Assembly (NCBI GenBank): GCA_003175865.1
Contig: PSRF01000314.1
Location: 1 to 12,168 of the forward strand
DNA length: 12,168 bases
Source of the DNA: Blastocatellia bacterium
GTDB lineage: Bacteria > Acidobacteriota > Blastocatellia > Pyrinomonadales > Pyrinomonadaceae
Direction of reading: 5' to 3'
Part shown: positions 8,919 to 10,870 of the stretch, piece after piece
Position numbering within the stretch: the stretch's first letter is position 1
Layout: every line of letters starts with the position of its first letter
Notes under the pieces: model-generated
Seen by the model: the letters and a program-made list of their open reading frames with translations, nothing else
What the model was told of the DNA's origin: nothing
Databases searched by the model: none
Translations under genes and position numbers: made by a program

Positions 8919-10136
8919 TTGAAAGTTCTTCACGTCATTCCGTCAGTCTCCGAACAATCAGGTGGCCCTGCTCAGGCGATTTTCCCCATGTGTCGAGCAC
9001 TAATGTCGCGAGGCCATGAGGTTACGATCGCAACGACGCGGCATGGTCTTTCAGATGTCAATGGCCACGCGAAACGGATGTATAAGGGAATTCTCACTCA
9101 TTTCTTTCCGGTTCAATGGGGAGAGGGATTCAAATACTCTCGACCTTTTAAGACCTGGTTGGATCGGAATGTTCAGAGCTTCGATGTGGTTCACATTCAC
9201 GCGGTTTTTAATTACTCAAGTATTGCCGCGTCCAAATCATGTCGCAAATCTCGGGTTCCATATGTGGTCAGGCCTCTTGGAACGCTAGACCCCTGGAGTA
9301 TGAAACAAAAAAGTTTCAGAAAGTCCTTGTTCTTTACTCTTGCAGGGAAGCGCATGCTACAGAGTGCGGGAACTGTTCACTACACTGCGCAGGGGGAATT
9401 CGATCGCGTGAAGCACTCTCTGGGTCTCACGCAGGGCACTGTGGTACCTCTCGGCATTGAAGACGAATCGAAGTCAATAACTGACATTGTGCTGGGAGCG
9501 CAGGCGTCATCGCCTGCTCGTCTCCCATTGCGGGTCGAGAGGGAAACGCACGAGGCGAGGACGCCTGCGCTCCCAGCACCTCCTTATATTCTGTTTCTTT
9601 CACGACTACATCCGAAGAAGGGCCTCGAACTGTTGATAAAGGCATTCGTAGCATTGCACAAGAACCAAATCTTTTCGGAGTGGCATTTAGTGATCGCGGG
9701 AGACGGCGATAGAGACTATGTCGATTCACTGAAACGACTTGTCAGCTTAAATAGCGGCGACGAGACAATTCATTTTGTTGGCTGGCTAAGTGGTGATCAG
9801 AAGCCTGAAGTACTTCGCAAGGCATCATTGCTGGTGCTTCCGTCTCGCCAGGAGAATTTTGGACTTTGTGTGTTGGAGGCGCTTGCTGAAGAAGTGCCAG
9901 TCGTTGTTAGTAGCGAAGTGAATCTGGCGAAGGAGATTGCTGATGCGGGAGCCGGGTGGATCAGCAAAGTCGATGTCGCGAGTCTGGTGAAAACCCTTTC
10001 GGAGGCGATGATTGATAGAGAACAAAGACTTCGTCGCGGCTCGGCCGGTAAGGCGTTTTCTCAGAATTTCACCTGGGAAAGTATTGCGGAAAAACTTGAG
10101 AATATGTACGTCTCGATTGTTGAGCGAAATGGCTGA
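8919..10136 (+). CDS. Glycosyltransferase family 4 with in-frame palindromic insertion
   Basis: A 405-residue protein from TTG 8919, four bases after the asparagine synthetase stop. Translation from there, MKVLHVIPSVSEQSGGPAQA, gives the expected first strand and glycine-rich loop. The N-terminal domain includes FDVVHIHAVFNYSS (88-101) and PYVVRPLGTLDPWS (114-127), ending near VVPLGIEDE (175-183). Residues 191 to about 220 are foreign in character (VLGAQASSPA to RTPALPA) and are encoded by the palindrome at 9489-9579. The C-terminal domain then resumes with YILFLSRLHPKKGLELLIKA (223-242), AGDGDRDYVDSL and SRQENFGLCVLEAL, with Glu312 and Glu320 as the E-x7-E pair. All signature residues are intact and the frame is open, so the enzyme is probably active despite the longer interdomain linker. 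It should be a retaining cytoplasmic sugar transferase of the repeat-unit pathway. Confidence 0.88.
   Translation: MKVLHVIPSVSEQSGGPAQAIFPMCRALMSRGHEVTIATTRHGLSDVNGHAKRMYKGILTHFFPVQWGEGFKYSRPFKTWLDRNVQSFDVVHIHAVFNYSSIAASKSCRKSRVPYVVRPLGTLDPWSMKQKSFRKSLFFTLAGKRMLQSAGTVHYTAQGEFDRVKHSLGLTQGTVVPLGIEDESKSITDIVLGAQASSPARLPLRVERETHEARTPALPAPPYILFLSRLHPKKGLELLIKAFVALHKNQIFSEWHLVIAGDGDRDYVDSLKRLVSLNSGDETIHFVGWLSGDQKPEVLRKASLLVLPSRQENFGLCVLEALAEEVPVVVSSEVNLAKEIADAGAGWISKVDVASLVKTLSEAMIDREQRLRRGSAGKAFSQNFTWESIAEKLENMYVSIVERNG
9489..9579. repeat. Palindromic element inserted in-frame in a glycosyltransferase gene
   Basis: Two 27-base arms, 9489-9515 and 9553-9579, are reverse complements with one mismatch and flank a 37-base spacer. 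The outer end is GTGCTGGGAGCGCAGGCGTC on the left. Each arm also folds on itself: GCAGGCG 9500-9506 with CGCCTGC 9511-9517, and AGGCG 9553-9557 with CGCCT 9562-9566. The element is read as about 30 codons (VLGAQASSPA...RTPALPA) of the surrounding glycosyltransferase without breaking the frame. I see no target-site duplication. The layout matches interspersed palindromic repeats that insert into coding sequence, such as Rickettsia palindromic elements. That this one occurs elsewhere in the genome is my inference from its form. Confidence 0.85.
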
Positions 10137-10764
10137 GTCGTACGCCGAATTTGAGTGGCTTACTGACTCTGCGGCGAACGGGGTCTCCGGGGAGAAACTT
10201 GCTGACAAGCTAGTTATTCTGATTCGAAGTTTCAAAGATGTCAGCAGCATCTGCGATCTTGGTTGTGGTAACGGCTACCTTGCTAGTCGACTCGCTTCCT
10301 ATGGTTATGATGTCGTTGGCATCGACGCATCCGCAAGTGGCATTGAGCAGGCAAAGAGTAAAGCAACGAAGGTCAGGTTCATTCAATCTTTCATTGACAA
10401 GGATGTTCGGGATCGCAACGGTCTGAAACCTTTCGATCTCGTGGTATCGAGTGATGTCGTTGAGCATCTTTATCGACCATCCGATCTATTCGAAGCAGCA
10501 GGAGTTCTGTTGAATCAAAGCGGTAGACTTGTAATTACGACTCCTTATCACGGTTATCTAAAGAATCTTGCGTTGGCACTCAGCGGCAAAATGGATCGTC
10601 ATTTTTCTGCCCTTCACAATGGGGGTCACATAAAGTTCTTTAGTGTTGCCAGTTTGTCAGAACTGATGGCAAGCCACGCGTTCGTTGATTTGAACTTTAA
10701 CTATTACGGCCGGGCTCCATGGCTTTGGAAGAACATGATCTGTCATGCACGGAAAGGAAAATGA
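10129..10764 (+). CDS. Class I SAM-dependent methyltransferase (UbiG-like)
   Basis: A 211-residue protein. The chosen start is ATG 10129, which overlaps the glycosyltransferase stop by eight bases (ATGGCTGA) and puts the SAM-binding fold at a normal distance from the N terminus. An upstream in-frame start at 10012 would add 39 residues lying entirely inside the previous gene and is unlikely. Motif I is ICDLGCGNGYLASRLA (41-56), followed by DVVGIDASASGIEQAKSKA (61-79), where Asp66 should bind the ribose hydroxyls. FDLVVSSDVVEHL (102-114) and GRLVITTPYHGYLKNL (132-147) match motifs II and III. DRHFSALHNGGHIKFFS (156-172) is the common acceptor-side segment of this group. It most likely O-methylates a sugar of the repeat unit. 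The stop codon is followed one base later by the large palindrome at 10766. Confidence 0.88.
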   Translation: MAESYAEFEWLTDSAANGVSGEKLADKLVILIRSFKDVSSICDLGCGNGYLASRLASYGYDVVGIDASASGIEQAKSKATKVRFIQSFIDKDVRDRNGLKPFDLVVSSDVVEHLYRPSDLFEAAGVLLNQSGRLVITTPYHGYLKNLALALSGKMDRHFSALHNGGHIKFFSVASLSELMASHAFVDLNFNYYGRAPWLWKNMICHARKGK

Positions 10765-10765
10765 A

Positions 10766-10870
10766 CTAATCAAGTCAGAAGCGAAAAGCGTTAGCGTCGG
10801 ATCCAGCCCAAGTATCGTCGTTGAACTGCGCGGGACCGAAGCTACCCCGTTTCGCTTCTGACTTGATCAG
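10766..10870. repeat. Large imperfect palindrome filling a gene junction
   Basis: Bases 10766-10804 pair with the reverse complement of 10832-10870 across a 27-base loop, with about 32 of 40 aligned positions identical. The outermost 21 bases (10766-10786 against 10850-10870) differ at only one position, and the arm core is ATCAAGTCAGAAGCGAAA. The repeat begins one base after the methyltransferase stop and ends ten bases before the preferred start of the next glycosyltransferase. No T-run follows, so it is not a simple terminator. As RNA it would form a strong hairpin between two genes of the operon. The arms are unrelated to those of the element at 9489. Mobility or multicopy status is inferred. 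Confidence 0.8.

Follow-up and report, generated by a model that had tools for sequence, protein, structure and literature searches.

A palindromic element of 89 bp is translated in frame within a GT4-type (GT-B) glycosyltransferase gene of a soil Blastocatellia bacterium (Acidobacteriota), on a contig stretch of 12,168 nucleotides (PSRF01000314.1) that is referred to below as the window. The element belongs to a repeat family dispersed through the host genome, lies between the two domains of the enzyme and is retained at this one site across a clade of homologues, in which its spacer has turned over and most of it has been lost in frame in two members; cousin hairpins stand beside genes of RAYTs (repetitive extragenic palindromic (REP)-associated HUH/Y1 transposases) in the same bacterial family. 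Taken together, these observations suggest, with a probability put at roughly 80%, a REPIN-like insert (REPIN, REP doublet forming hairpins) that was moved by a RAYT, is ancient in the glycosyltransferase linker of the clade and has since had its content rewritten.

The element in the glycosyltransferase gene and its repeat family

The glycosyltransferase is encoded by an open reading frame (ORF) of 405 aa with a TTG start (8919..10136, forward strand), in which Pfam recognises an N-terminal GT-B domain (PF13579, residues 15-178, 8961..9452, forward) and a C-terminal one (PF00534, residues 210-378, 9546..10052, forward). The element starts at residue 191, at the boundary between the two, so that the in-frame position at the inter-domain linker proposed by an earlier, sequence-only reading of this DNA is confirmed. 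The database entry of the protein (P0001) begins at an in-frame ATG at residue 24, and among solved structures the glycosyltransferases 3c4q/3c48 come closest to it in sequence, with a good match over the C-terminal part.

The element (9490..9578) consists of two inverted 23-base hairpins (GGAGCGCAGGCGTCNTCGCCTGC) flanking a 33-base spacer. On the forward strand the outer end TGCTG (9490..9494) is followed by the left REP unit GGAGCGCAGGCGTCATCGCCTGC (9495..9517, coding GAQASSPA) and by the 33-nt spacer, which is open in frame (9518..9550, coding RLPLRVERETH); the right unit is inverted (9551..9573, reverse strand), differs from the consensus at two positions, codes EARTPAL on the forward strand and is closed by the mirror end CAGCA (9574-9578), these TGCTG...CAGCA ends being common to most pairs in the genome. 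The two arms of the palindrome, 9489-9515 and 9553-9579, are 27 nt each, 37 nt apart and complementary at 26/27 positions, which agrees with the single mismatch reported earlier. The further claim that each arm is itself self-complementary stands for the left one, where the arm and the next two bases form a perfect 7-bp hairpin (GCAGGCG-TCAT-CGCCTGC, 9500-9517), and holds only in part for the right one, in which 2/7 stem pairs are broken and the REP end reads CCTCG instead of CCTGC. The predicted RNA fold of 9485-9585 reaches -68.6 kcal/mol, where shuffled sequences average -39.1 (z -8.15; none of 200 shuffles equal), and a chance palindrome is excluded by this fold together with the genomic copies of the hairpin core.

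These copies were counted in a host assembly of 3.57 Mb in 436 contigs, estimated to be 62% complete. The exact 14-base core GGAGCGCAGGCGTC occurs at 59 sites (30 forward, 29 reverse) and its reversed-pattern control at none, the arm being thus a genome-wide repeat. Searching 60 contigs and the window (560,771 bases; 44 contigs chosen for a copy, 16 otherwise; all 59 cores included) for the 23-base unit with up to 5 mismatches gave 84 units in 49 elements, and 35 of the latter are head-out pairs of 73-112 bp that follow the REP dimer plan of two inverted hairpins and a spacer. Pairs were defined as a forward unit followed by a reverse unit within 120 nt, and no unjoined units lay less than 300 nt apart. 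Three exact-core sites outside these elements (L042, L051, L064) bring the total to 52 sites. The units begin with GGAGC (65), GGACC (8) or other pentamers (11), never with GT[AG]G, and the bases of the TGCTG outer end are conserved in 61, 62, 65, 64 and 65 of the 69 ends of the 35 pairs, preceded by C at -10 in 44/69 and by T at -9 in 40/69 outside the hairpin. Two copies (L069:6178-6260 and L066:1343-1440) have flanks that are inverted repeats beyond TGCTG (tcgtgaa/ttcacga and tacgcca/tggcgta) and look like insertions into pre-existing hairpins.

Pair spacers span 27-66 nt, and their length is a multiple of three in 12 pairs. Those of the window copy and of L075 are stop-free in both directions in the LGAQASSPA frame; among the other ten, L073 is open both ways and L041 and L058 one way. 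The window spacer has no clear similarity to the other spacers of the genome (best score 0.33). The exact 23-base REP is present in 4/145 related genomes, host included, and scanning sequence collections for it brought up 20 stretches, which belong to Acidobacteriota, Chthoniobacter, Deltaproteobacteria, Bacteroidales/Prevotella and Sumerlaeota records.

Clear in-frame cases, defined by at least 60 open residues on each side of the element, amount to 4/52 sites, so that the view of a protein-embedded repeat holds for these four copies and has to be qualified for a family found mainly outside long frames in this genome. Open residues to the left and right number 196/186 in the window glycosyltransferase, 559/509 at L075:9680-9791, within a 1094-aa TAT-variant molybdopterin/4Fe-4S oxidoreductase (peptide LGAPASSPA...AGTPALPA), 998/524 at L051:9184-9290, a REPIN in the 1528-aa frame of an Lhr-type large helicase (AGSARVSPA...AGETPALPA), and 66/421 for a single unit at L039:1280-1302 in a protein with a weak TIG-domain match (QAGTPALPA). 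The left unit of the helicase copy is one base short and its left half is consequently read in a different frame; the right half gives TPALPA in the same frame in all four proteins. The predicted recurrence of the peptide in unrelated proteins is therefore borne out. No frame with that many open residues on each side exists at the remaining 47 sites; a match with 5 mismatches within a long frame (L083:5485) was taken as a chance match. Ten relatives of the molybdopterin oxidoreductase (P0160, P0173, P0182, P0186, P0190, P0196, P0201, P0204, P0211, P0216) carry a TPAVPA-ending peptide, mostly GGTPAVPA, in another linker, which may be an old REP remnant or a coincidence.

Retention, turnover and loss among glycosyltransferase homologues

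For the homologues of the glycosyltransferase, 8000 candidates were scored, 1952 passed E <= 1e-60, 120 were listed and aligned and the first 60 rows were inspected. The nearest homologues have a stretch of their own at this position. Classified by eye, it is recognisable in 14 of the 18 (P0002-P0018, P0026; 67-74% identity) as the two-arm element in the corresponding place of the linker, which speaks against an equivalent non-palindromic stretch common to all; the arms are degenerate in P0006 and P0014, and most of the element is lost in frame in P0017 and P0018. Twelve more distant homologues have a short, element-free linker. Measured from PLGI to YILF, the linker is 42 aa in the window, 37-50 aa in two-arm relatives, 19-25 aa in empty rows, 22 aa in P0017 and 16 aa in P0018. 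The net gain from the element is therefore about 17-26 residues and not the clean 30-residue gap that had been anticipated. Besides the gene itself, no orthologue at about 70% identity was found in the genomes of 59 relatives, 16 members of the genus or 119 members of the family.

A shared (S/N/T)D(S/I)V flank precedes nearly all inserts of the clade, and none of the clade members at 67-74% identity has a plain ancestral linker. Within this constant site the spacers fall into discrete types, labelled in this analysis TDCDS, RVGT, DQxHG, HSPCW, LAAQ and window. On a tree of 31 rows built without the linker, the empty state of the 12 distant rows needs a single change in 98% of 200 bootstrap trees, all spacer types together need 13 changes (minimum 9; shuffled-label mean 18.3), and the TDCDS type needs four, two of them forced by well supported branches. 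Exchange and loss are also seen between close pairs: P0012 and P0016 have different spacers despite 96.8% identity outside the linker, and P0012 and P0017 are 99.4% identical, the middle of the element being absent from P0017. The window reads LGAQ/TPALPA and most relatives LGPQ/TPAVPA, as expected in both arms from the coding of the GGAGC and GGACC sub-types; this difference would count as one event and not as proof.

RAYT genes and elements of related bacteria

The host genome contains nine Y1_Tnp matches and four matches to the RAYT model NF047646, one of the latter listed above its cut-off (94.9 bits, a 188-aa protein). On a Bacteroidales contig, both ends of a RAYT ORF (L119:983-1789, reverse strand; NF047646 82.3 bits, cut-off 80) overlap a window-type REP, which is identical at one end and differs at 2 positions at the other, and each of these hairpins is paired with a GC-richer variant. 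The N- and C-terminal codons of this RAYT are formed by the flanking hairpins. In the bacterial family of the window a RAYT match occurs in 96/119 genomes, 75 of them above cut-off, and in 5/30 fetched loci (L133, L135, L143, L153, L157) the RAYT is flanked on either side by hairpins that keep the plan of the window type (GGANC, 7-bp stem, 4-nt loop) but have altered stems (GCGGAC..); crude block shuffles of the loci gave no such pair. These arrangements suggest that the REP type of the window was mobilised by a RAYT.

In genus g9, RAYT matches of nine genomes lie within open frames of 907-1064 aa. Twelve loci were fetched, these nine and L168-L170 for comparison, and the RAYT motif falls inside a long frame in 8/12. 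The hosts are acetyl-CoA synthetase, with one insertion site in L159, L160 and L161 and a second in L163, L166 and L167, and PriA in L164 and L165 (L159-L161 and L163-L167 come from genomes G158, G173, G111, G070, G172, G156, G083 and G155). L162, missed by the motif scan, was counted as nested by its NF047646 match; L168 is cut by the contig end, and L169 and L170 are not nested. Hairpin units lie within the frames of L159-L163, L166 and L167; the hairpin scan found none in the PriA loci L164 and L165, where only the peptides (SADTPVR...DKSVRTP) are REP-like. In the Pfam scan, Y1_Tnp has an AMP-binding stretch on either side in L163, and in L164 and L165 it separates the PriA 3'BD domain from the helicase domains, with NCBIfam concurring on L164 as PriA with RAYT; in L160 only a sub-threshold ACAS_N match precedes Y1_Tnp. 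The inserted part of these four proteins holds only Y1_Tnp, and no splicing domain was seen. The RAYTs are thus nested in frame, and they may be translated and active as fusions.

When the RAYT part of L165 was searched against a protein database, among entries of 585-1862 aa, 82 proteins were obtained. By their listed domains, 64 are AMP-binding (two without YTSGTTG and one, P0313, without Y1_Tnp), 6 are PriA, 3 methionine synthase and 1 of DNA polymerase III alpha-type, 6 have methylase, restriction or PF18135 domains and 2 have Y1_Tnp alone. Among the AMP-binding proteins of at least 850 aa with YTSGTTG, 54/56 retain all five motifs that we take to mark the enzyme and the transposase. Some of the nested-RAYT proteins are encoded on contigs as long as 2-3.8 Mb, and their sources are several; an assembly error is therefore unlikely. 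The RAYT motifs read PNHVH and YIENNP in some proteins and PNHAH in many. In the 47/82 proteins with at least three recognisable arms, the two arms of a within-protein pair share their sub-type in 327/439 cases (0.74; shuffling gives 0.50, with a maximum of 0.58 in 2000), an agreement inflated by the relatedness of the proteins. Literature searches, with most subscription papers and preprints outside their reach, brought up no description of a RAYT gene lying in frame within a host gene.

The cousin pattern occurs 1-35 times per genome in eight genomes of the sister genus selected for nested RAYTs, and never as reversed controls. Two of them with 29 units each (G103 and G173; G158, with 35, was left out) were studied with up to 4 mismatches and at least 60 open residues on each side, counting weak hits and RAYT-flanking units. 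In frame were 21/25 elements of G103 (15/18 pairs) and 14/24 of G173 (6/10 pairs). These 35 elements fall in 28 frames, 24 of which have Pfam domains; without the four that have none at E <= 1e-10 (L203:5092-5988, L213, L227, L231), the counts become 19/25 and 12/24. The hosts include TatD, LeuRS, CarB, a class II aminoacyl-tRNA synthetase, ThiC, MetH, asparagine synthase, RtcB, GidA, DapB and AIR-synthase-like proteins.

TatD, ThiC, MetH and GH92 each carry an element at a position that the two genomes share. Only two of these four shared sites could be scored, and there the insert sequences differ: median normalised scores are 0.41 and 0.50 against inserts of the same genome, 0.26 and 0.15 against the orthologous insert, and 0.17 for all between-genome pairs. 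Gene conversion is a probable cause of such rewriting of insert content. For LeuRS, matched in 38/41 genomes of the genus, 30 loci were read. A full REPIN precedes the KMSKS loop in G103, and in G095, which is 97% identical to it over residues 1-631, a short turn takes the place of the element; L247, L251 and L260 show REP-like remnants by eye, three other loci have longer unrelated linkers and the rest have short or nearly short ones. The flanks of the LeuRS junction differ as well, so this is not a clean insertion into unchanged sequence.

Competing explanations, known systems and meaning

The preferred history would run as follows. A non-autonomous two-hairpin REPIN-like element, most probably moved by a RAYT on single-stranded DNA, would have entered the inter-domain linker of the glycosyltransferase long ago, in the ancestor of an Acidobacteriota clade. 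It would have survived because its length and spacer kept the frame open and because its peptide, made of small residues and prolines and likely disordered and neutral, sits where extra residues are tolerated. The site would then have stayed constant as spacers and REP sub-type (LGAQ/TPALPA or LGPQ/TPAVPA) were exchanged, and two in-frame deletions, probably through inter-arm recombination or slippage, would have removed most of the element.

Several observations weigh against this history. The spacer labels cluster on the tree more strongly than shuffled ones do (0/200 shuffles as low), therefore part of their pattern is plain descent, and the rest could reflect ordinary strain recombination or, rarely, assembly chimeras. 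The palindromes of the 18 homologues were deduced from their peptides. The window copy lacks the CT dinucleotide found 9-10 bases outside many copies and may thus be immobile, and the foot of its hairpin is GGAGC/GGACC instead of GT[AG]G. As for the transposase, no REP unit was found near the above-cut-off NF047646 match in the 62%-complete host genome, the same-plan hairpin pair is absent from 25/30 family loci (a lone unrelated hairpin in L131 excluded), and a looser sequence search gave 11 matches in 4/30 loci, its reversed control giving 3 matches in 3 others.

The insert could instead have arisen repeatedly, if a target-specific transposase favoured the linker codons and every lineage received its own REPIN with its own spacer. 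The discrete spacer types at several tree positions, and the TatD, ThiC, MetH and GH92 sites filled in both sister-genus genomes by their own element type, speak for such a course, but the common flank of nearly all clade inserts, the absence of a plain linker among clade members and the resemblance of P0017 and P0018 to deletions within an existing element make it rather unlikely. Co-option, in which the insert would tune hinge motion or stability of the enzyme and be kept by selection, could account for in-frame retention across about 25-30% protein divergence. It is nevertheless improbable, given that the spacer is free in sequence and in length (linkers of 37-50 aa in two-arm homologues), that two near relatives have lost most of the element and that the same peptide is present in unrelated proteins; the available data show no sign of a function of the insert for the glycosyltransferase.

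A linker of ordinary low complexity, palindromic by chance through its Ala, Pro and Ser codons, would find a parallel in the L075 oxidoreductase, whose linker is Ala/Pro/Ser-rich anyway and whose relatives have unrelated linkers of similar composition; set against the 59 exact cores, mostly outside long frames and none when reversed, and the fold z of -8.15, this explanation is hardly credible. Rickettsia palindromic elements are protein-embedded palindromes in many unrelated genes. A homologue of them spread by horizontal transfer would give the same outcome, in-frame palindromes in unrelated genes (here the GT4 enzyme, the molybdopterin oxidoreductase, the Lhr helicase and the L039 protein), but the REP-dimer architecture and the cousins beside RAYT genes leave this very improbable, a judgement made from architecture as far as seen and without comparison to Rickettsia element sequences. 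The likeness to these elements proposed by the sequence-only reading thus holds for a protein-embedded repeat, and a REP/REPIN-RAYT system fits better (PMC3733652).

REPINs and BIMEs (bacterial interspersed mosaic elements) are pairs of REPs in inverse orientation, whose mobilisation is attributed to RAYT/TnpA-REP proteins (PMC3116915, PMC8266576); REPIN excision (PMC3116915), RAYT cleavage and a CT cleavage dinucleotide outside the hairpin (PMC8266576) have been described. The present family resembles them in its inverse hairpin pairs with tags outward, its 27-66 nt spacers, its tens of mostly extragenic copies and the Y1/RAYT genes of the genome. It differs in that it has no GT[AG]G tag, that the 62%-complete host genome yielded no cognate RAYT and that one copy is part of a protein across a whole clade. 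The tetranucleotide GT[AG]G at the hairpin foot is the canonical tag (PMC6006769), and since it is absent here the window element is a REPIN-like protein-embedded hairpin that cannot be filed as a canonical GTAG REP. Nor does it match CGTC-tagged REPs, as there is no unpaired end CGTC and CGTC here spans stem and loop.

REP dimers within ORFs, coding 20-30 aa in several phyla, are already in print, with intragenic GTAG/CGTC REPs in Opitutus terrae, Rickettsia conorii and others, and with RPE-4 and RPE-6 of R. conorii classed as intragenic REPs (PMC3733652). The window element shares with these the ORF-internal dimer, the 20-30 aa and the presumed location in linkers or loops, and differs by its occurrence in Acidobacteriota, its non-canonical tag and a site kept while spacers were exchanged; the two sister-genus genomes with most elements intragenic and the nested whole RAYTs are further differences. 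Some of the RAYTs described here agree with NH[IFV]H and YIxNNP, the motifs of TnpA-REP subclass 2.4. In that subclass, too, REPs lie in frame in a coding gene, but there the REP is within the RAYT, whereas here the RAYT is within a housekeeping gene; long fusions were discarded in that survey (PMC6006769). What is new here is the mostly in-frame occurrence of cousin elements in two selected sister-genus genomes and the nesting of RAYTs in acetyl-CoA synthetase, PriA and methionine synthase, and these nested RAYTs are a more surprising result than the glycosyltransferase insert. Inteins, too, are mobile coding units in frame within conserved enzymes; unlike them, the nested RAYT inserts show no splicing domain in the four fusions scanned with Pfam.

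Elsewhere in the window, a second palindrome (10766-10870; 35-nt arms, 86% complementary, 35-nt gap) sits directly after an ORF ending at 10764 and extends into the start of an ORF at 10821; no further copy of it was found in the host genome.

For this Acidobacteriota family it may tentatively be proposed, with somewhat less than even confidence, that the REP/RAYT system has moved inside proteins. REPINs would be translated inside core enzymes, and so would whole RAYT genes, as internal domains (in acetyl-CoA synthetase, PriA, methionine synthase, DNA polymerase III alpha-type and restriction/methylase-like proteins); expression and retention of the transposase would be tied to indispensable genes, genome-wide conversion would match the protein-embedded REPINs to the resident RAYT, and the glycosyltransferase insert would be a satellite of this system. 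Insertions of this kind can be tracked as peptides across homologues, so that one can count how often a site persists, a spacer is exchanged or an element is lost in frame. How RAYTs and REPINs persist vertically for long times is a question to which the nested RAYTs are relevant, as they suggest that in-frame lodging in core genes is protective. It is also suggested that LeuRS, CarB, ThiC, MetH and PriA have defined positions at which about 30 to 250 extra residues can be accommodated, and such tolerance of conserved enzymes would be useful for protein engineering and calls for caution in gene annotation.

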